Source: Novosphingobium sp. KA1 (GTDB taxonomy: Bacteria > Pseudomonadota > Alphaproteobacteria > Sphingomonadales > Sphingomonadaceae). From it: a DNA stretch of 64,000 bases. The notes under the pieces are model-generated. The model saw nothing but the letters and a program-made list of their open reading frames with translations, was not told the DNA's origin and did not search any database. Position numbers and translations under genes: made by a program. Below are positions 5,599-13,658 of this stretch, one piece after another (positions within the stretch are counted from its first letter, which is position 1; the number at the start of each line of letters is the position of its first letter). The stretch covers positions 186,001 to 250,000 of the forward strand of contig NZ_CP021249.1 of NCBI RefSeq assembly GCF_017309955.1, given 5' to 3'.

Positions 5599-5623
5599 CT
5601 TAGCTAAGTTCTATAAACTAAGT
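5599..5623. promoter_or_regulatory. Candidate vapBC autoregulatory operator
   Basis: CTTAGCTAAG at 5599-5608 is a perfect palindrome, and CTAAGT recurs at 5618-5623, 11-35 bp upstream of the antitoxin start in an AT-rich spot. The position suits autoregulation by the TA complex. It overlaps the 3' end of the interrupted strawberry-notch fragment. Confidence 0.45.
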
Positions 5624-7497
5624 CTACCACATCCGTTCGCGTCTGCAAGCTCCTCGCAAGGTGCCTGTCCAATCAGGCTTGCAAGGATTTGGTCGGCCTT
5701 GTCCGTCGGCACGAACACCCGCGTCTTGTAGGCAATGATTTCCGTGAAGCAGCCCTTGGCCTTGAGCTCGGGGATGCGCGCGGCTTCGGCATCGACGATC
5801 TCGATCCTTCGGGAACCGTTCACGCGTGATGTGCGGATCGTGAAATTGAGCGGATGAGGCGCCTTCCAGGTGCCCCCGCCAAGGATGGCAGCCGCAATCT
5901 TGGCAGGATCAGTCTGCGCCTTGCGGGCCACCCCGAGCTTTTCGAGGGTCGCATCGACGTAGAGGTCGTGGACATGGCGGCCGAGCCAGGAAGCACCTGA
6001 CTTGTCGACGATGCGGTTGACCGTGAGGTCTTCCTTGGGAAGCGCGCCCCAGATCGGCAGGAGCAGCCCGGTCGCGAGACAGACCGTCTCAGTGACGAGC
6101 TGGCTTTCGTCGGCGGCGTATTCCTCTTCCCACAGCGCGCTGAACCTGGCCTTGGTCACGGGCTCCCAGGCGGACTCATCGAGCCGGTCAGCGCGCAGGT
6201 ACTCGCTGCGCAGCGGCCGCACGAGCTCGTAGCGGCGGATCATGTGGCCCTCCTCGTCCATGTGCGAGGGCGCCGCGATGCCAAGCGCGACCTTGCCCGA
6301 CTTGTCATTGCGCAGGAACAGCGGCTGTTCCTCATAGGATGCCAGCTTGAGCACGCGTTCGAGCGAGAGAACCTTGCGCCGCTGCGTCAGTGACAGCTCA
6401 AGCAGGTGCGAGGTCGCGCCCGTCACAGAGTCGGTCCGGATCACAGTGTCGGACAGCACCTCGCAGGCCTCGACCGCCACGGTCTCGACCCCGATATCGA
6501 AGGTGCCCGCTTCCTTCGCCGCCGAGACGCGGGTTTCGACAAGGGTGAGGAACTCGTCGAAGATCGCGTTCTGGACGGCGATCTTCATGGCAAGGATGCG
6601 GTTGAGCCAGCGCTGGATCGGCGGCAGATCCTCGCGCAGCACCCCGTCCTGGTCGGTGAGTTCGAGCCCGCTCATCCGCTGGAACTCCGACAAGGTCGTG
6701 CTCTTGAGCTTGGCCATAGCGAGGAGGCCATACCAGTCGTGGAGCGCGTGCTTGGCGTAGATGCTCTCGAGGTTGTCGCTGGCATCGAACATCCCCTGCC
6801 CGCCGGTCTGGCGCTGGCCGCGGGTGAGCGCGCCCAAGGCGTCGAGGCGCCGCGCGATCGTGCTGGTGAAACGGGCCTCGCCCTTGCAGTCGGTGGTGAC
6901 CGGGCGGAACAGCGGCGGGCAAGCCTGATGGGTGCGGTGGGTGCGCCCAAGTCCCTGGATCGCCCGATCAGCACGCCATCCGGGCTCGAGCAGGAAGTGG
7001 ACCCGGCGCTGCTGGTTTTTCGCATCGAGGCTCGCGTGATAGCTTCGGCCCGTACCGCCTGCATCGGAGAACACGAGGATGCGCTTGGCCCCGGTCATGA
7101 ACGCGGTGGTCTCGGCAAGGTTGGTCCGGGGTGAGCGGCTTTCGAGGCGCTGCTGCCCTGAGCCGTCACGGACCAGGCGTTTGCTGCGACCGGTCACCTC
7201 GGCGACGGCCGTTACCCCGTAGTGCTCGAGCAGCGCATCGAGCGCGGTCGGGATCGGCGGCATGGCGCAGATATGCTCGATCAGGTCGGCGCGCGCGGCC
7301 TCGGCCTGCGGGTTGTGGACCGGATTGCCCGCCTCGTCCCACATCGGCCGCGAGCGCACGTCGCCAAGTTCGTCCGTGTATTCCTCCATTTGCCGGGTCG
7401 GGAAGGCGCGGGTCAGATAGTCGACGACGTATTCTTTGCAGTCCGCGATTATGTCGAGTCCGGCAGCCGGAGGCTCGGATTTGCGTCGGTTCGTCAT
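5611..7497 (-). pseudogene. Strawberry-notch family helicase, C-terminal part (split by RIT element)
   Basis: A 628-aa frame matching the C-terminal half of bacterial strawberry-notch (SBNO) proteins, SF2-type helicases of large plasmids. Recognisable segments are VVDYLTRAFPTRQMEEYTDE, SRSPRTNLAETTAFMTG, ILVFSDAGGTGRSYHA, the arginine-finger region GLGRTHRTHQ, and LTRGQRQTGGQ. The N-terminal half is at 11148-13616. The 3.7-kb RIT element separates them, so the pair corresponds to one protein of roughly 1,430 aa. The first 24 residues of this frame (MTNRRKSEPPAAG...CKEYV) are encoded inside the element's terminal repeat, which supplies an ATG. The fragment may thus be translated separately, but without the helicase N-terminus it is unlikely to be functional. 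Confidence 0.85.
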
Positions 7498-7515
7498 GAT
7501 TTTGCTCCAGATAAT
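7426..7515. repeat. RIT left terminal inverted repeat
   Basis: A 90-bp repeat that is the reverse complement of 11041-11130 with two adjacent mismatches. It begins GACGTATTCTTTGCAG at its outer edge and ends with ATAAT at the inner edge. On the minus strand it encodes an ATG and a 24-codon frame that continues into the SBNO C-terminal fragment. Confidence 0.9.
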
Positions 7516-7545
7516 ATGAGCGTTGGGGGAATGTCCGGGGACGGG

Positions 7546-8550
7546 CTAGGCCCGCCTCCGAACGTCGGTAAGCATGGTGATCAGGGCATCGGATGGCGGC
7601 TTGAAGCGCCCGGGTTTGATGGCGGGCGCGCCGTGAGCCGCGAGGATTTGCAACTTCTCGTCGGGATCGGCGCGTAAATAGGCCTCGGTGCTCTGGATGC
7701 TGGCGTGGCCGAGCCATAACGCGACCTTGCGGATGTCCCCGGTCGCTGCGAGCGTGTGCATCGCACAGGAATGGCGCAACACGTGCGGCGTGACGCGCTT
7801 GCCAAGGATCGACGGCTGCTTCTCTGCCGCGGTCTTGACGTGCTCGGCCAAACGGAACGCAAACCCGTCGCGGGTCATCGGCTGCCCGTTGGCATTGAGG
7901 AATATCTCGGCGACCTCGGCGTCGGGGCGGATCGCAAGCCATGCGCGCAACGCGAACTGGGTCTCCTTCCAGAGCGGTAGGACCCGTTCACGCCGACCCT
8001 TGCCCATGATGTGCACGGTGGACAGGGAGCGGTCGGGAAAATCGCGCAGCTGCAGCGTTACGAGTTCCGACACTCGGAGCCCGCCAGCATAGGCCAGATG
8101 CAGCATTGCGCGATCGCGGGTGCCAAGGCGTGTCCTGGGATCGGGGGCATCCAGCAATGCCTTGATCTCTGCCCGGTCGAGATAATCGATGAGCGCCTTG
8201 TCAGTCTTCTTGCTTGGGATCGATCGAACCCGAAGCGCCTGGTCAAGACAAACCGGAACTCGATACTCGATGTACCGGAAGAAGGACCTGATCGCCGCCA
8301 ACCTGCCATTGCGGGTGCGCACGGAGCTGCCGCGCTGGGCTTCGATATGGTCGAGAAATGCCAGGATTAGATCGATGCCGAGATCCTCGACCTCCAGATC
8401 GGTCGGTCGGCGCTTCAGCCGATCGGCAGCAAACCGGACTAGCAATACGAAGCAGTTGGCATAGGTCTTCACCGTGTGCGGGCTGACGGCGCGTTCCCGC
8501 GGCAGATGTTCGCGGAGGTATGCCGTGAGATGGGGAGCGAGCGCCGTCAT
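7546..8550 (-). CDS. ritC: Tyrosine recombinase of RIT element, third gene
   Basis: A 334-aa tyrosine site-specific recombinase. The N-terminal SAM-like core-binding domain spans residues 1-110 (SPHTVKTYANCFVLLVRF). The catalytic domain shows R159 (GGLRVSEL), a lysine in the beta-hairpin near 184 (IMGKGRRERV), H256 and R259 (HVLRH), H282 (LGHASIQST) and the nucleophile Y291. All catalytic residues are present, so the enzyme should be active. The ATG overlaps the stop of the preceding recombinase gene (ATGA at 8547-8550), indicating coupled translation. The trio is thought to mobilise the element by recombining its ends, though the division of labour among the three is not established. Confidence 0.9.
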   Translation of the reverse strand: MTALAPHLTAYLREHLPRERAVSPHTVKTYANCFVLLVRFAADRLKRRPTDLEVEDLGIDLILAFLDHIEAQRGSSVRTRNGRLAAIRSFFRYIEYRVPVCLDQALRVRSIPSKKTDKALIDYLDRAEIKALLDAPDPRTRLGTRDRAMLHLAYAGGLRVSELVTLQLRDFPDRSLSTVHIMGKGRRERVLPLWKETQFALRAWLAIRPDAEVAEIFLNANGQPMTRDGFAFRLAEHVKTAAEKQPSILGKRVTPHVLRHSCAMHTLAATGDIRKVALWLGHASIQSTEAYLRADPDEKLQILAAHGAPAIKPGRFKPPSDALITMLTDVRRRA

Positions 8551-9461
8551 GCCACTTCTCCCAGAAAGAGGTGTTCGCTCGCGGTAGCGATGTCGCGCAG
8601 CAGCACCGGGGTGGCTTCGAGATACCAATAGGTGTTGGCGATCGAGGCGTGCCCCAGATAGGCGCTGAGTCCGGCCATGTGATGCGCAACGGCCTCCCTG
8701 TCCGGCGAACACGACTCCAGCGAGCGCACGGCGAAAGTGTGCCGCAAATCGTGTAGCCGCATTCCGGTCGTACCGGTTGGTCCACGATAGCCGAGCTGTC
8801 GCGCCAGTCTGACGAACACGATATGAGCACGCACCTTGTGGGGTGCTCTTCCCCGGATCGTCACGAACAGGTCGCTGCCAGTGGCGCCGAGCCTTGCCCG
8901 GGTAGCGAGATAGGCTTCGAGCGCCTGACGGGTCGATGGCTGCAACGCTATCAGGCGCTGCTTGCCGAACTTGCCGTTGCGAATGATCAGGCCGTCTCCG
9001 CCCAGATCGTCGCATTGTAGCGCCAAGGCTTCGGAAATCCTGAGGCCCGTCGCAGCCAGCAGTCCAAACAGGCAATGGTAGGTATGAGGGCTGATCATGC
9101 CCATGGGCGGCAGGTCCAGTGCTGCTGCCATGATCGCCCGAACCTGTTCCGGTTCGATGATGGTCGGCGTGGGGCGCGGACGCTTGCCCCGACCGAAAAC
9201 GCCTGCAGGTGGGACCTGGTGTCCTGAATCTTCGGTGTGGGCGAATAGGCTGAAGTTGCGAACCGTGTCGAACCGCCTTTGGGCCACGTTCTGCGAGCTC
9301 GATGTGTGGCACCAGTCGTATATCCGTTGGACCTTGGTCCGTCGGTCACCGAATCCTTCGGCGTATGCTGCGTAGAGTCTGAGCATCCGGTCCTGTTCGC
9401 GGAACTTCCGGCCCAGGCTGCGATGCAGCGCGACGTATCTGGAAATATGCGTGTTCAGCAT
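8547..9461 (-). CDS. ritB: Tyrosine recombinase of RIT element, second gene
   Basis: A 304-aa tyrosine recombinase. Visible catalytic residues are R141 (TGLRISEAL), K164 in RNGKFGKQR, H237 and R240 (LHDLRH), H271 (LGHASIANT) and Y280. The N-terminal DNA-binding part has a basic segment (HRSLGRKFREQDRMLRLY). It overlaps the upstream recombinase gene by seven bases and the downstream one by four, so all three are made from one transcript. It appears intact. Assignment as the second RIT gene is by position. Confidence 0.9.
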   Translation of the reverse strand: MLNTHISRYVALHRSLGRKFREQDRMLRLYAAYAEGFGDRRTKVQRIYDWCHTSSSQNVAQRRFDTVRNFSLFAHTEDSGHQVPPAGVFGRGKRPRPTPTIIEPEQVRAIMAAALDLPPMGMISPHTYHCLFGLLAATGLRISEALALQCDDLGGDGLIIRNGKFGKQRLIALQPSTRQALEAYLATRARLGATGSDLFVTIRGRAPHKVRAHIVFVRLARQLGYRGPTGTTGMRLHDLRHTFAVRSLESCSPDREAVAHHMAGLSAYLGHASIANTYWYLEATPVLLRDIATASEHLFLGEVA

Positions 9462-11002
9462 GACAGATCTCCTGGCCAGGGCTGTGCGATCTTCATGAGC
9501 ATCGGCAAATCGACCTTGGCGTAGATGGCAGTGGTCTCGGGCGAGCTGTGACGCAGGATGGTCCCGACGGACTCCAGGCCTGCGCCCGCGCGCAGCATGT
9601 TGGTGGCAAGCGAATGCCGGAATATGTGTGATCCGGTCGGCAGACCTTCGATCCCGCTTCGCTCCAATGTGCGTGCAACGATGCCGGCAATCTCAGCCGA
9701 CGAGCTCAACGACCGAAACGGGGCATGCGCGCGCAGGAACAGGTGTCTGTCGATCGCCTTTGGACGAGCCGTCGACAGGTAGGCCAAGATCGCGTCGCCG
9801 ACATCCTGGGGCAGTGGCAACCGCTCCGATCGTCGTGACTTGCCCTTGACTATCAAATGGCCGGAACGCCAATCGATGTCGTCGAGGCGCATATCCCGAA
9901 TATCACTTGCCCGCAGGCCGAGCCTGGCAAGCAAGAGAATGATGGCCTTATCCCGGATCTGCACTGGCCGGTCAGTCGGACAGGCCGAAATGATCCTCTC
10001 GATCGTTGCCGGGTCAACATAGCGCGGCAATGTTGAAAGGCGGTATCGCTGCACAGAGGGTATCGCGTGCAGCAGTGCGGGACGGCATTGGCCTTGACCA
10101 ATGAGAAAGCGAAGAAAGCTCCGCATGATCGTAACGAGCAGCGATACCGATCCCGGCGTCTCCTTGCTTCTTCGCGCGAATGCGCTTCGTAGACCGGCGG
10201 CATCCCACAGCACGGGTGCGCCAAGCATGGCTATCAACCGGTCGACCTCCGGCCGATACCGACGGATAGTCGCGTCGGTTGCGCCGCGATGCTGCTTGAG
10301 CCAACCGAGATAGGCCGCGACATCCGGATGTACTTCCAGCTTCGCTTCGACTGGCGCGATAGCACCGCGATCACGAAGAAACGCGACGAAGTGCCGAATG
10401 AAACGACGACGCCTCTTCATACCTGAAGAGGCCAACTTGCCGCGTTTGCGAAACGCCGGGCAGCGACAGTCGTGACCCGCGTATTGCTCGATCACCCCCT
10501 CATCGACTTCGGTCCAAGGTCGTCGCGACACGCGAAGCCAGATGGCGAAGTGCTCGGCCTCTGATCGATATGCTCCCGATAGCGCCTCAACGAGCTGGAG
10601 AGCATCGATCTGGTGCGAGTAGGCTGCCAGATGCCCACCGAGATCATCGATCCCATCGGCGACCACGATGTAGCCCTGATCTTCGAGAAACCGAATAAAG
10701 CGCCTGACACGCGCCGCAAGATCGGCCTTGTAGGCCGGCTCTTGCGCTGAATATCCCGGGCACCGGCATCGATGCTTCTCAAACCGGTGCGCGACGTGGT
10801 CGTCGAGCGTCTCGAGCGCAATCCCACGTAGTCCCAGCCAACTGAGAAAGTGGCGGACCGCTGCGCTGTACAGGACCGCACAAGCCGCCCCTTCGTCAAC
10901 CGACAGAGAGGAGAGGAATGCGGTGAATAGGGCGTCGGGACTGGGCGGATCTTCAATCCTGCGCGGCGCGGGCCGAAACGACGCAAATGATCTTGTTGGC
11001 AT
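9455..11002 (-). CDS. ritA: Tyrosine recombinase of RIT element, first and longest gene
   Basis: A 515-aa tyrosine recombinase whose C-terminal 190 residues form the catalytic domain: R364 (LGLRASDI), a hairpin lysine near 387-388 (VKGKSRR), H459 and R462 (HIFRHS), H485 (LRHSSPETT) and Y494. The N-terminal half is unusually long and contains a repeated unit: HRCRCPG near residue 77 and HDCRCPA near 177, each followed about 20 residues later by RRFIR and FL-x-D-x-G. This suggests a duplicated core-binding module. The ATG at 11002 follows AAGGA, and that ribosome binding site falls in a predicted hairpin. It is the first gene of the trio. Confidence 0.9.
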   Translation of the reverse strand: MPTRSFASFRPAPRRIEDPPSPDALFTAFLSSLSVDEGAACAVLYSAAVRHFLSWLGLRGIALETLDDHVAHRFEKHRCRCPGYSAQEPAYKADLAARVRRFIRFLEDQGYIVVADGIDDLGGHLAAYSHQIDALQLVEALSGAYRSEAEHFAIWLRVSRRPWTEVDEGVIEQYAGHDCRCPAFRKRGKLASSGMKRRRRFIRHFVAFLRDRGAIAPVEAKLEVHPDVAAYLGWLKQHRGATDATIRRYRPEVDRLIAMLGAPVLWDAAGLRSAFARRSKETPGSVSLLVTIMRSFLRFLIGQGQCRPALLHAIPSVQRYRLSTLPRYVDPATIERIISACPTDRPVQIRDKAIILLLARLGLRASDIRDMRLDDIDWRSGHLIVKGKSRRSERLPLPQDVGDAILAYLSTARPKAIDRHLFLRAHAPFRSLSSSAEIAGIVARTLERSGIEGLPTGSHIFRHSLATNMLRAGAGLESVGTILRHSSPETTAIYAKVDLPMLMKIAQPWPGDLSC

Positions 11003-11005
11003 GGT

Positions 11006-11036
11006 GGTTCCTTCGACGTGTTGAGGTCGAAGAACC
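11006..11036 (-). promoter_or_regulatory. Hairpin covering the ritA ribosome binding site
   Basis: GGTTC-c-TTCGAC at 11006-11017 pairs with GTCGAA-GAACC at 11026-11036, leaving an eight-base loop and one bulged base. It lies four bases before the ritA ATG, and the AAGGA ribosome binding site (minus strand) is within the stem. Folding would hide it, a plausible way to keep recombinase expression low. Confidence 0.45.
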
Positions 11037-11040
11037 CGTA

Positions 11041-11130
11041 ATTATCTGGAGTGAAATCATGACGAACCGACGCAAATCCGAGCCTCCGGCTGCCGGACTC
11101 GACATAATCGCGGACTGCAAAGAATACGTC
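11041..11130. repeat. RIT right terminal inverted repeat
   Basis: The inverted copy of 7426-7515 (88 of 90 positions identical). Read on the plus strand, it encodes the same 24-residue peptide starting at 11059 and ending with a stop directly after the repeat. The N-terminal SBNO fragment begins about 18 bases further right. Confidence 0.9.
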
Positions 11131-11147
11131 TAATCTGGATCTCAACA

Positions 11148-13616
11148 TTATACATACTCCTTACAGTCATAGGCTATGTCGAGGGCCTCACGCTCAGCCG
11201 GCTCCAGTTCATCGAGCCGCCGGTTGAGGATGGATTCCGCCGTGCTCACCAGTTGGACGACCACGCTATCCCCTTCGCCCAAATGCTCGTCGATCGCGGG
11301 GTAGATCGAGGGCAGTTTCAGCGAGAGCAGGACTTGCGCAAAGAAGCGCTGCTTGGTTCCCTCGAACCGACTGCGGGCCGCCGCCTTGGCGCCGCTGTTG
11401 AGCGTCCGGTTCTCAAGCCCGTCGACGATGCCGGTGAGTTCAAGCGCGGCTTCGAGGTTCTGGTGAATGATCGTCCAGGCCTCGCAATAGGTGTCGTAGA
11501 CCGTGATCTGCTCAACCGTCAGGTCATGGCGCAGGATGTCGTATTCGATGCCAGCAAAGCTGAGCGCCCGGGCGAGGTAGAGCCCTGAAGCCTTGAGGTC
11601 GCGGGCCACCAATTCCATCGCGGCAATGCCGCCGTCGCGGATCTCGCTGATGAACTGCTCGCGGTTTGCAAACGCCGTGCCCGGCCCCCACAGGCCAAGC
11701 CGGACAGCATAGGCGAGGTTGTTGACGTCCGAAGCACCGGTGGCCGATGCATAGAGCACCCGGGCGCGGGGCAGCGTGTTCTGGAGCAGCACGCCGGCGA
11801 TGCCCTGGAGCGAGCCCTGCTTCTGGCCCCCTGACTTCTGACCAAATCCCCCTTCCCCGCCCGCAACGCCGCCCATTTCGTGGGCCTCGTCGAAGACGAT
11901 CACGCCTTCGAACTCCTCACCGGCCCAGCGGACGATCTGGTCGAGCCTGGTGTCCTCGACGCGTGAGCTGCGCAGCGTGCCATAGGGAACAAACAGGATG
12001 CCTTCGGGCGCGGTGATCTCCTCACCGATCTTCCAGCGGGCAAGGTCGAGAATATCTGACGGCAAGCCGCCGATCGCGGTCCAGTCTCGCTGCGCGTCTT
12101 CGAGCAGCGGCGCATTCTTCGAGATCCAGATGTGTCGGCGATTGCCCTTCAGCCACTGGTCGAGAATGCAGGCCGCCGCCTGCCTCCCCTTCCCAGCCCC
12201 GGTGCCGTCGCCGAGGAAGAACCCGGTGCGGTAGAGCTTGCCGTCAGGATTCTCCTTGAGCGCCACTTCGCCGGCGGGATGGCTGAACCGGCCGTGAAGA
12301 TCGCGCGACCAAGCTTCGCCCGCATAGATCACGGTTTCGAGCTGGGCGGCGGATAGCAACCGCGCGGTCACTGTGCGTTCGGGCAGGGAGGGCACGTAGC
12401 CGGGTTTGGGCGCCGCGATCGAGGCCATGGCGGCGGATTCGACGAGGTGGGTCGGATGTTCGCCAGCTTCCGCGATCACGACACGCGAGGGCCGGTAGTC
12501 GGCATAGACCCCGCGCTGCTCGCCCATCGCGGCGGGTTCGGCCAGCACGTCATAGGCGACCGGGCGGACGTCGTTGGTCTGGGGGGCGCGCACGACCACG
12601 GGCCGGGCTGGACCGGTCTTCACCGAGCGGAACAGGCTGAGCTTTGGTCGGGGCGCTACCGCCTGCGTCGGGTCACGCAACGGCGCCCGAAGCGGCACCG
12701 TAGGCAGCGCGGCGAAGAGTTCGCCGACCGAACCGCGATTGATGGTCGATACGCCGATCTCGCCTGGCACCTTGTCGATCACCAGCACGCGAACGGCGAT
12801 CCCGGTGCCGTGCTTGACGTAGCCTCCCTTGTCCAGACGGAGCGACAGCACGACCCGCGCGCCTTCAAGGGTGCACCGGAAGGTTTCCTCATACCTTGCT
12901 GAGGGTGAGAACCAGTCCGGCATGATCGCAACGATCCGGCCACCGGGCAGCAGATGGTCGAGGGCGGCCCGCAGGTGCCTGGCGGCGGTGTTTTGATCCT
13001 CACCGCGTGATTGCGACACCGAGAACGGCGGGTTCATAACAGCGACGCTTGGACGTTCAGTCCCGGAGAGAACCGCGCTGAGTTTCGCGCCATCGTGGCG
13101 ATAGACCTTCGTGCCCGGAAACACGGCCTCGAGCAGGTCGGCACGGGATGGTTCGAGTTCGTTGAGAATGAGGCCCTTGACCGCGCCCTTGGCAAGCGAA
13201 GCGATGATACCGGTGCCCGCGCTCGGCTCCAGCAACACGTCGTCGCCGGAAAGCCCCGCCAGATGAACAACGAGCCTGGCCAGCACCGGCGGCGTCGAGA
13301 ACTGCTGGAAATGGATCTGGTCCTCGCTGCGTACCGTGTGGGTCGGCAGTTCGCGCGCCAGCGCCTCCAGCGTGCTGATCGCCGCGCCGACGTCCATGCG
13401 GCTGACAAGCTCGGGAATGGCGAGGGAGAGCGCGACTTCCAGCGCTTCGAAACTGTCGCGCTGCTGCCAGGCACCTGCGGCGTCATTGCCGCCTGCACTC
13501 TCGGTCATGGCTTCGCTTAGAGCGGCGCGGTCGATCGGAACAGCGAGGAGTAGCTTGGCGGCAAGTGTGCGCGCAGCGCCGAGAATGGCGCTCGCGCGCG
13601 GAATTGTTGTGGTCAT
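11148..13616 (-). pseudogene. Strawberry-notch family methyltransferase/helicase, N-terminal part (split by RIT element)
   Basis: An 822-aa frame. Residues 100-300 resemble an N6-adenine methyltransferase domain: EPSAGTGIIASLA as the SAM-binding motif and NPPF as the catalytic motif. Residues 430-800 hold the N-terminal helicase lobe, with a Walker-A-like GDGTGAGKGRQAA and a VIVFDEAHE box, followed by conserved SBNO sequence. The frame stops at 11148 just after LDIAYDCKEYV, where the RIT element is inserted; the continuation is at 5611-7497. These giant proteins are common on large proteobacterial plasmids and phages, and their role is poorly defined. AGGAG lies nine bases before the ATG at 13616. 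The polypurine leader lies further upstream. Confidence 0.85.
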
Positions 13617-13658
13617 GCGGAGATCTCCTGAGCTTGTGCCGATCAGCGGCACGCCCGC

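Follow-up and report, generated by a model that had tools for sequence, protein, structure and literature searches.

Probable site-specific insertion of a RIT element into a strawberry-notch gene, with 6-bp target tags at its junctions and a putative translation-restart cassette in its repeats

A 64,000-nucleotide stretch of DNA from Novosphingobium sp. KA1 (contig NZ_CP021249.1, positions 186,001 to 250,000), referred to here as the window, carries a RIT element that splits a strawberry-notch (SBNO) helicase gene with a trio of tyrosine recombinase genes set between inverted repeats. Comparison with other copies makes it likely that the element is a RIT which inserts site-specifically into SBNO, a judgement made jointly on the whole explanation given below. 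The copies are bordered by 6-bp tags and a 20-bp palindrome, and in identical copies from one strain the tags fit transfer from donor to recipient in a single direction. The inverted repeats appear to double as a translation-restart cassette, through which the cut-off SBNO half may still be translated. The features of the element and its target are listed below by position in the window.

5611-7497, minus strand: C-terminal SBNO half with the Helicase_C_4 domain; the native part is 5611-7425
7426-7431, minus strand: 6-bp tag on the C side, TACGTC, taken to be the 6 bp of the current target itself; the same in the intact relatives L036 and L145
7426-7515: left inverted repeat, 90 nt, with a putative minus-strand restart cassette
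7432-7443, minus strand: terminal 12-bp core, left end, GACTGCAAAGAA
7495-7508, minus strand: cassette of the left repeat, with a Shine-Dalgarno (SD)-like GGAG at 7505-7508, ATG at 7495-7497 and 24 codons
7546-8550, minus strand: ritC, tyrosine recombinase, 334 aa, PF00589
8547-9461, minus strand: ritB, tyrosine recombinase, 304 aa, PF00589
9455-11002, minus strand: ritA, long tyrosine recombinase, 515 aa, PF00589
11041-11130: right inverted repeat, 90 nt, with the plus-strand copy of the putative restart cassette
11048-11061, plus strand: cassette of the right repeat, with an SD-like sequence at 11048-11051 and ATG at 11059-11061; here TAA follows
11113-11124, plus strand: terminal 12-bp core, right end, GACTGCAAAGAA
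11125-11130, plus strand: y tag, TACGTC, probably the 6 bp of the previous target
11131-11150, no strand: 20-bp palindrome TAATCTGGATCTCAACATTA, imperfect in the window and 20/20 in many relatives
11148-13652, minus strand: N-terminal SBNO half with the AAA_34 domain, ending in ...DCKEYV-TAA
11151-11156, minus strand: 6-bp tag on the N side, TATGTA, which would have arrived with the donor element
11157-11186, minus strand: LDIAYDCKE block of the native gene, SPRE in most relatives, probably an old trace of an element end

Descriptions of RIT elements date back to 2009. The published passages define them by three adjacent, overlapping tyrosine recombinase genes, a length of ~3.5 kb, terminal inverted repeats and a location inside genes (PMC3414803, PMC2864759, PMC8138268). 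The window element shares the recombinase trio, the inverted repeats, the palindrome and the location inside a gene. Its rit genes are adjacent on one strand with overlaps of 4 and 7 bp, PF00589 is found in all three products, the three genes fill the space between the repeats, and the palindrome lies at one of the ends formed by these terminal repeats. The 515-aa RitA has ~225 N-terminal residues outside the recombinase matches, the other two proteins being 304 and 334 aa long. The repeats are identical at 88 of 90 positions, with both mismatches at repeat positions 78-79. A preliminary description of this DNA had reported the trio and the 90-bp repeats (88 of 90 identical) splitting SBNO, which is borne out by the coordinates and the comparison; absent from it were the palindrome at 11131-11150, the cassette elements of both repeats (SD-like sequence and ATG) and the variable 6-bp tags. 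The plasmid record NC_008308.1 (Novosphingobium sp. KA1) equals the window over the 3,821 bases tested.

The copies compared were drawn from 80 of 118 matched loci with RitB relatives in named genomes, from 20 places in 17 of 298 family genomes, and from 22 stretches of 139 matched plasmid records (loci are cited as L, genomes as G). A class-wide search with a Methylocystis RitB gave matches in 2 of 385 genomes, one being the window's own, and among viral contigs five stretches turned up, none of which was confirmed. In 54 of the 80 loci the RIT adjoins one half of SBNO, here a plasmid helicase gene, and the cut falls at one and the same codon boundary. The other 26 consist of L117, inserted in a DUF932-like gene, L129, beside a gene that by eye resembles the helicase-type gene containing the L014 element, and 24 short contigs of 3.3-6.2 kb without an SBNO match, many of which start and stop at the element's own ends. 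Contigs of 3,699-3,710 bp starting and ending at RIT ends or tags (L066-L068, L073, L094, L106, L107, L114, L115, L122, L128) are expected of multi-copy elements.

The split falls between the AAA_34 and Helicase_C_4 domains of SBNO. The intact relative L036 reads ...LDIAYDCKEYV|VDYL... without interruption, which places the insertion point exactly between EYV and VDYL. The same site is used by elements of rhodobacters, Mesorhizobium and Bradyrhizobium whose RitB is only 54-56% identical, and two Methylocystis plasmid elements are also found there. The consensus common to the targets, read by eye, is ~GAR-N6-NTSGAYTW. In 66 N-side rows the residues at the target are SPRE (51), TPRE (10), DITP (2), SPKD (1) and DCKE (2), the last being the window and its duplicate L035. 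A second SBNO gene in the window's own genome (G000:C2:550235-552721) has a 1430-codon open frame and is 49% identical to the N half. No solved structure was found for the SBNO C half, and no relevant literature was found on SBNO together with a recombinase.

In copies with both halves of one gene, the order in SBNO orientation is SBNO-N, N tag, 20-bp palindrome, y tag, core, element, core, C tag and SBNO-C, each tag being 6 bp. The TAA that terminates the N-terminal half lies inside the palindrome. Comparison of 22 split genes with a close intact relative gives a mean of 0.36 mismatches for the C tag, which is native in most cases, and 1.73 for the N tag, which is exact in six of them and otherwise mostly foreign. 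Both orientations occur, with 43 rows the same and 26 opposite (69 rows), or 37 and 27 among 64 distinct complete elements. The palindrome (TTATGCCGATATCGGCATAA and similar) has also been observed in distant RIT loci (L014, L023-L025, L029, L032-L034, L153 and L154), though some of the loci searched lack one. The off-target copy in L117 (4313-8040) is an SBNO-type RIT that interrupts a DUF932-like plasmid gene close to its 3' end, where the native residues are E-SI. Its C tag encodes SI and is native, and its N and y tags encode YV and AV, both SBNO-type, so that this copy appears to come from SBNO. A homologous DUF932-like gene in L153 has a RIT-type palindrome and end at the same place.

A second type of RIT (genes of ~1233, 1356 and 1005 bp) lies ~105 codons upstream in SBNO (L001:8067, L003:8081, L097:8371-12203 and others). 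Such a palindrome is found beside it as well and its tags are arranged in the same manner, but its end carries a stop in frame.

The tags can be tested on identical copies, since the tag rule requires the N and y tags of a recipient to equal particular tags of its donor. In a first round four of seven identical pairs obeyed the rule, among them all three whose members came from one strain. In the full set, 7/7 identical pairs from the same strain (zero element mismatches; strain labels from a hand-made list; the window duplicates L015 and L035 excluded) fit in exactly one direction, and the orientation changes in every one of them. In four of the seven, at least one member was collected after the rule had been fixed; the orientation flip was spotted only afterwards. 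The pairs added later are L003/L187, L012/L190, L191/L192 and L188/L189, the last being identical 6,546-bp elements that include an IS256 gene. The clearest pair is L003/L187, with the tags GCGATC and TACATA. The elements of L001 and L002, on two plasmids of one strain, YBL2, lie in opposite orientation and show no difference over 3,693 bp. In the window the imperfect palindrome is inverted relative to the rit genes when compared with these two elements, which differ from the window element at 19 of 3,693 positions. Identical pairs fit overall in 8 of 12 cases; in the first round the rule was satisfied by 51 of 3,080 ordered pairs of all elements, and it is satisfied in 2.1% of trials with tags drawn at random from the same pool. 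Misfits are seen in sets from one strain whose elements are not identical (L009/L010, L088/L118, and L191 or L192 with L193), which were left out of the test. Because the tags fit from donor to recipient in one direction only, each copy seems to hold the tag of its current site and those of two earlier sites. Identical copies at different places of one strain indicate RIT mobility at the level of sequence, and a passage of PMC3414803 (2012) had such mobility still awaiting experimental proof and the end sequences unlike usual attachment sites.

The repeats themselves carry a further conserved arrangement. In the sphingomonad ends, read outwards, an SD-like sequence is followed by an ATG that opens 24 codons in the frame of the downstream SBNO half; in the window the leader that the element encodes, MTNRRKSEPPAAGLDIIADCKEYV, continues in frame into this half. 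An open in-frame ATG leader is found in 70/70 C-side rows (69 distinct places, L015 being among the rows), and an SD-preceded leader in all 56 elements with both ends; random ends within the window give such a restart in 2.5% of cases. SD-preceded leaders of the other groups have 22 to 44 codons. Sphingomonad leaders read MENRRK/MTNRRK/MSSSRK...DCKE, those of rhodobacters and rhizobia are MIMPSGDPEMKKQIRDLTRRALHNADAAYYV-like, and the Methylocystis leader is MPRNHRAFPRKTGESSRPLGISGNVAEYV; judged by eye, the three groups seem unrelated upstream of the core. The repeat length tracks the SD-like sequence, which lies at 83 in repeats of 88-91 bp, at 84 in repeats of 96-98 bp (one case of 126) and at 98-100 in repeats of 99 bp; rhodobacter-type repeats measure 69-191 bp. 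The repeat extends to the SD in 55 of the 56 elements, and in L135 it stops short. In the off-target copy L117 the leader is again in frame, for 59 codons up to the gene's own stop. Six of the 70 C halves run off the contig; of the other 64, 61 are complete, with a length of at least 480 aa, and three are short. It is a prediction from these frames that the halves are expressed, the C half being translated from its leader, and that they work together as a helicase.

Taken together, the following explanation is in our judgement probable as a whole. First, the element would form a circle whose joint reads core, tag1, 20-bp palindrome, tag2 and core, that is, two back-to-back attachment sites with a common palindrome. 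Second, with support from the junction sequences, one attachment site would recombine with the target, ~GAR|N6|NTSGAYTW; after insertion the core would adjoin the target's own 6 bp and downstream half, and the donor 6 bp and palindrome would adjoin the upstream half. Third, with support from the identical pairs, the next jump would use whichever end adjoined the palindrome before it, and each jump would therefore reverse the orientation. The tags would then stand for the current target (C), the previous target (y) and the one before it (N). Fourth, both ends have an SD-like sequence, an ATG and an in-frame leader; the helicase is thus split between its domains, yet both halves could be translated. 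The site, tags, palindrome, frames, identical copies and pair rule are seen in the sequence; the circle with its joint, the strand bias of the exchange and the alternation of ends as a mechanism are what we infer. The tag rule accounts for the ends of RITs and reveals, by sequence alone, that they moved recently, and from a finished genome it would give the donor, the recipient and the direction of a jump. A restart cassette would let a mobile element split a gene without silencing it.

Parts of this scheme resemble known systems. In the strand-biased circularizing integrative elements (SE), the 6 bp beside motif C travel with the element, the joint spacer comes to lie beside motif C' in the new attR, and the 6 bp of the target end beside motif C in attL, as described in passages of PMC10214605. 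This fingerprint and footprint rule for 6 bp also holds here, at the level of junction sequences. The SE of those passages have intA, tfp, intB, srap and one spacer, whereas the window element has three recombinases, two spacers flanking a palindrome, and an apparent alternation of ends; the set intA-tfp-intB-srap is absent from the 3.7-kb elements looked at, inside which only three recombinases are annotated. SE further leave no empty site and have a double-stranded circle as intermediate. GInts, according to passages of PMC5385486, likewise have three recombinase-type genes, short hybrid att sites and 6-nt staggered cuts, and their authors think that the target is probably not fully inactivated by insertion. 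They need ginD, carry cargo and use an outward promoter, whereas a translation restart is proposed for the window RIT, in which three recombinase genes fill the space between the repeats in place of the four-gene operon ginABCD. Within RITs, the repeat has been given as 34 bp in a passage of PMC10214605, whereas it measures 88-99 bp in most copies here and contains the putative restart cassette. A passage of PMC3414803 reports a RIT 28-9 bp inverted repeat and an overlapping palindrome that fit no usual binding sites, and the junction anatomy found here accounts for both. The published passages give no role to the palindrome or to 6-bp tags. No description of the tag rule, end alternation or a restart cassette in RITs was recognised in the literature searched, which leaves out most subscription papers.

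Several observations weigh against the four-step explanation. The C tag is exact in just 14 of the 22 split genes, since a close relative is not an identical one. Four of the 12 identical pairs misfit the tag rule, all four between different strains, and the fits of L191/L192 and L188/L189 say little, as the tags of these pairs are common ones. A search of the loci for a circular joint found none. Two copies deviate from the standard anatomy: in L089 a palindrome and an N half stand at each end of the element, and L132 has a C half at each end and lacks the palindrome; both look as if two target genes had recombined through the RIT. These chimeras are what might be expected if copies spread by homologous recombination between plasmids, the tags being mutations or conversion tracts. 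We regard this as very improbable, since identical elements lie in different SBNO alleles in opposite orientation with their tags exchanged as predicted, and since the copy in the unrelated gene of L117 carries SBNO-type tags.

Further such observations concern the restart cassette. A codon substitution test is weak (p = 0.019 for the whole leader, 0.29 for the variable columns only). The second RIT type has an in-frame TAA in 12/12 C-side rows (L017 read by eye) and persists in SBNO all the same. Interruptions also affect 14 of the 58 N halves for which enough sequence is available, 12 through this second RIT, which has no restart, so that such genes are probably incomplete even when both pieces are counted. 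The open frame of the ends might be a mere by-product of an open recombinase site, the ATG and SD-like sequence having no role, and the core and its frame being inherited as one would fit this too. We consider it unlikely, if a good deal less so than the spread by homologous recombination, because three groups of leaders that seem unrelated by eye all have an in-frame SD-like sequence and ATG, the repeat length tracks the SD position, and nearly all C halves are intact.

A broader version of this explanation is more tentative, and we would put it somewhat below an even chance. RITs of this group would always alternate their ends and invert with each jump, the tags would be an ordered record of the last three targets, and the repeats would have evolved into restart cassettes that make a working two-subunit enzyme of a single-chain helicase. 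If so, such a helicase would let the RIT live inside a gene that its plasmid needs.

The element ends also resemble the target. A direct match between 7427-7458 and 11152-11183 covers 32 nt at 72%, and both segments translate as LDI--DCKEYV, so that the in-frame resemblance noticed in the preliminary description stands, as does its expectation that a comparison of RIT copies would reveal the choice of target. In the window target, the 30 bp preceding the 6-bp tag on its upstream side match an element end at 22/30, but no more than 19/30 is reached by 94 of the 99 native SBNO sites (from 33 intact genes and from 66 N-side flanks, L035 and some near-copies included), which places the resemblance beyond chance. 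The case named beforehand as pointing to coincidence, the same repeats in an unrelated gene without this sequence, was found once, in the DUF932-like gene of L117. Five of the 99 sites match at 21-25/30, namely the window, L036 and L145 (LDIAYDCKE) and L038 and L150 (LDITTDCKE). DCKE is confined to these two groups of native genes amid close relatives reading SPRE; those of the window gene (L007, L037, L146-L149) read ELDLSPREAI.

Two origins had been suggested for this resemblance. Recognition of the LDI--DCKEYV block by the recombinases is rejected, since nearly all targets (mainly SPRE and TPRE) are without it. Alternatively, the ends would have evolved from a captured, diverged SBNO allele and would target by homology. 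The resemblance in frame with mostly synonymous differences and the existence of DCKE genes agree with such a capture, which we nevertheless hold to be highly unlikely. CTCGACATAA, with the LDI codons, is also found in the ends of L126, a contig of the element only, and the ends of L014, inserted in a different gene, read CTCTACATAA, both without DCKE, suggesting that the LDI-codon sequence is owned by the element. SPRE or TPRE targets are used almost exclusively, and because DCKE is restricted to two native groups within SPRE relatives, its DNA more likely moved from element to gene. The five DCKE sites would thus probably have received the block, on one or two occasions, from an element, perhaps at element loss through recombination between direct copies. 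An SBNO tree built without the junction columns leaves the DCKE genes ungrouped and needs three changes of the DCKE label, with low backbone support, and a tree constrained to keep the DCKE genes together gives a borderline p-AU of 0.055. A pattern search of 397 family genomes, 14 of them with a match, recognised no fresh scar with an exact element end. Its matches fell on element ends, on type A sites of the window itself and of G196 (L036), on type B sites in G116 and, twice, in G722, and on one type A-like sequence in G741.

Some copies carry additional genes. A 434-aa passenger gene without a Pfam match is found at L005:4271-5575, and some copies with it span 5,110 bp. L136 and L138 are contigs of ~6 kb in which a RIT is accompanied by a long frame on the opposite strand, of 877 and 836 codons respectively; the L136 frame begins with the same peptide as a frame at the other contig end, as if a large passenger were carried. 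Finally, RITs in another large gene, near its SGTPITN motif, have been observed at L014:4856-8589 and L129:4222-5157. When the flanks of the L014 element are joined, an open frame of 399 codons results; a similar protein is encoded next to the RIT of L129.

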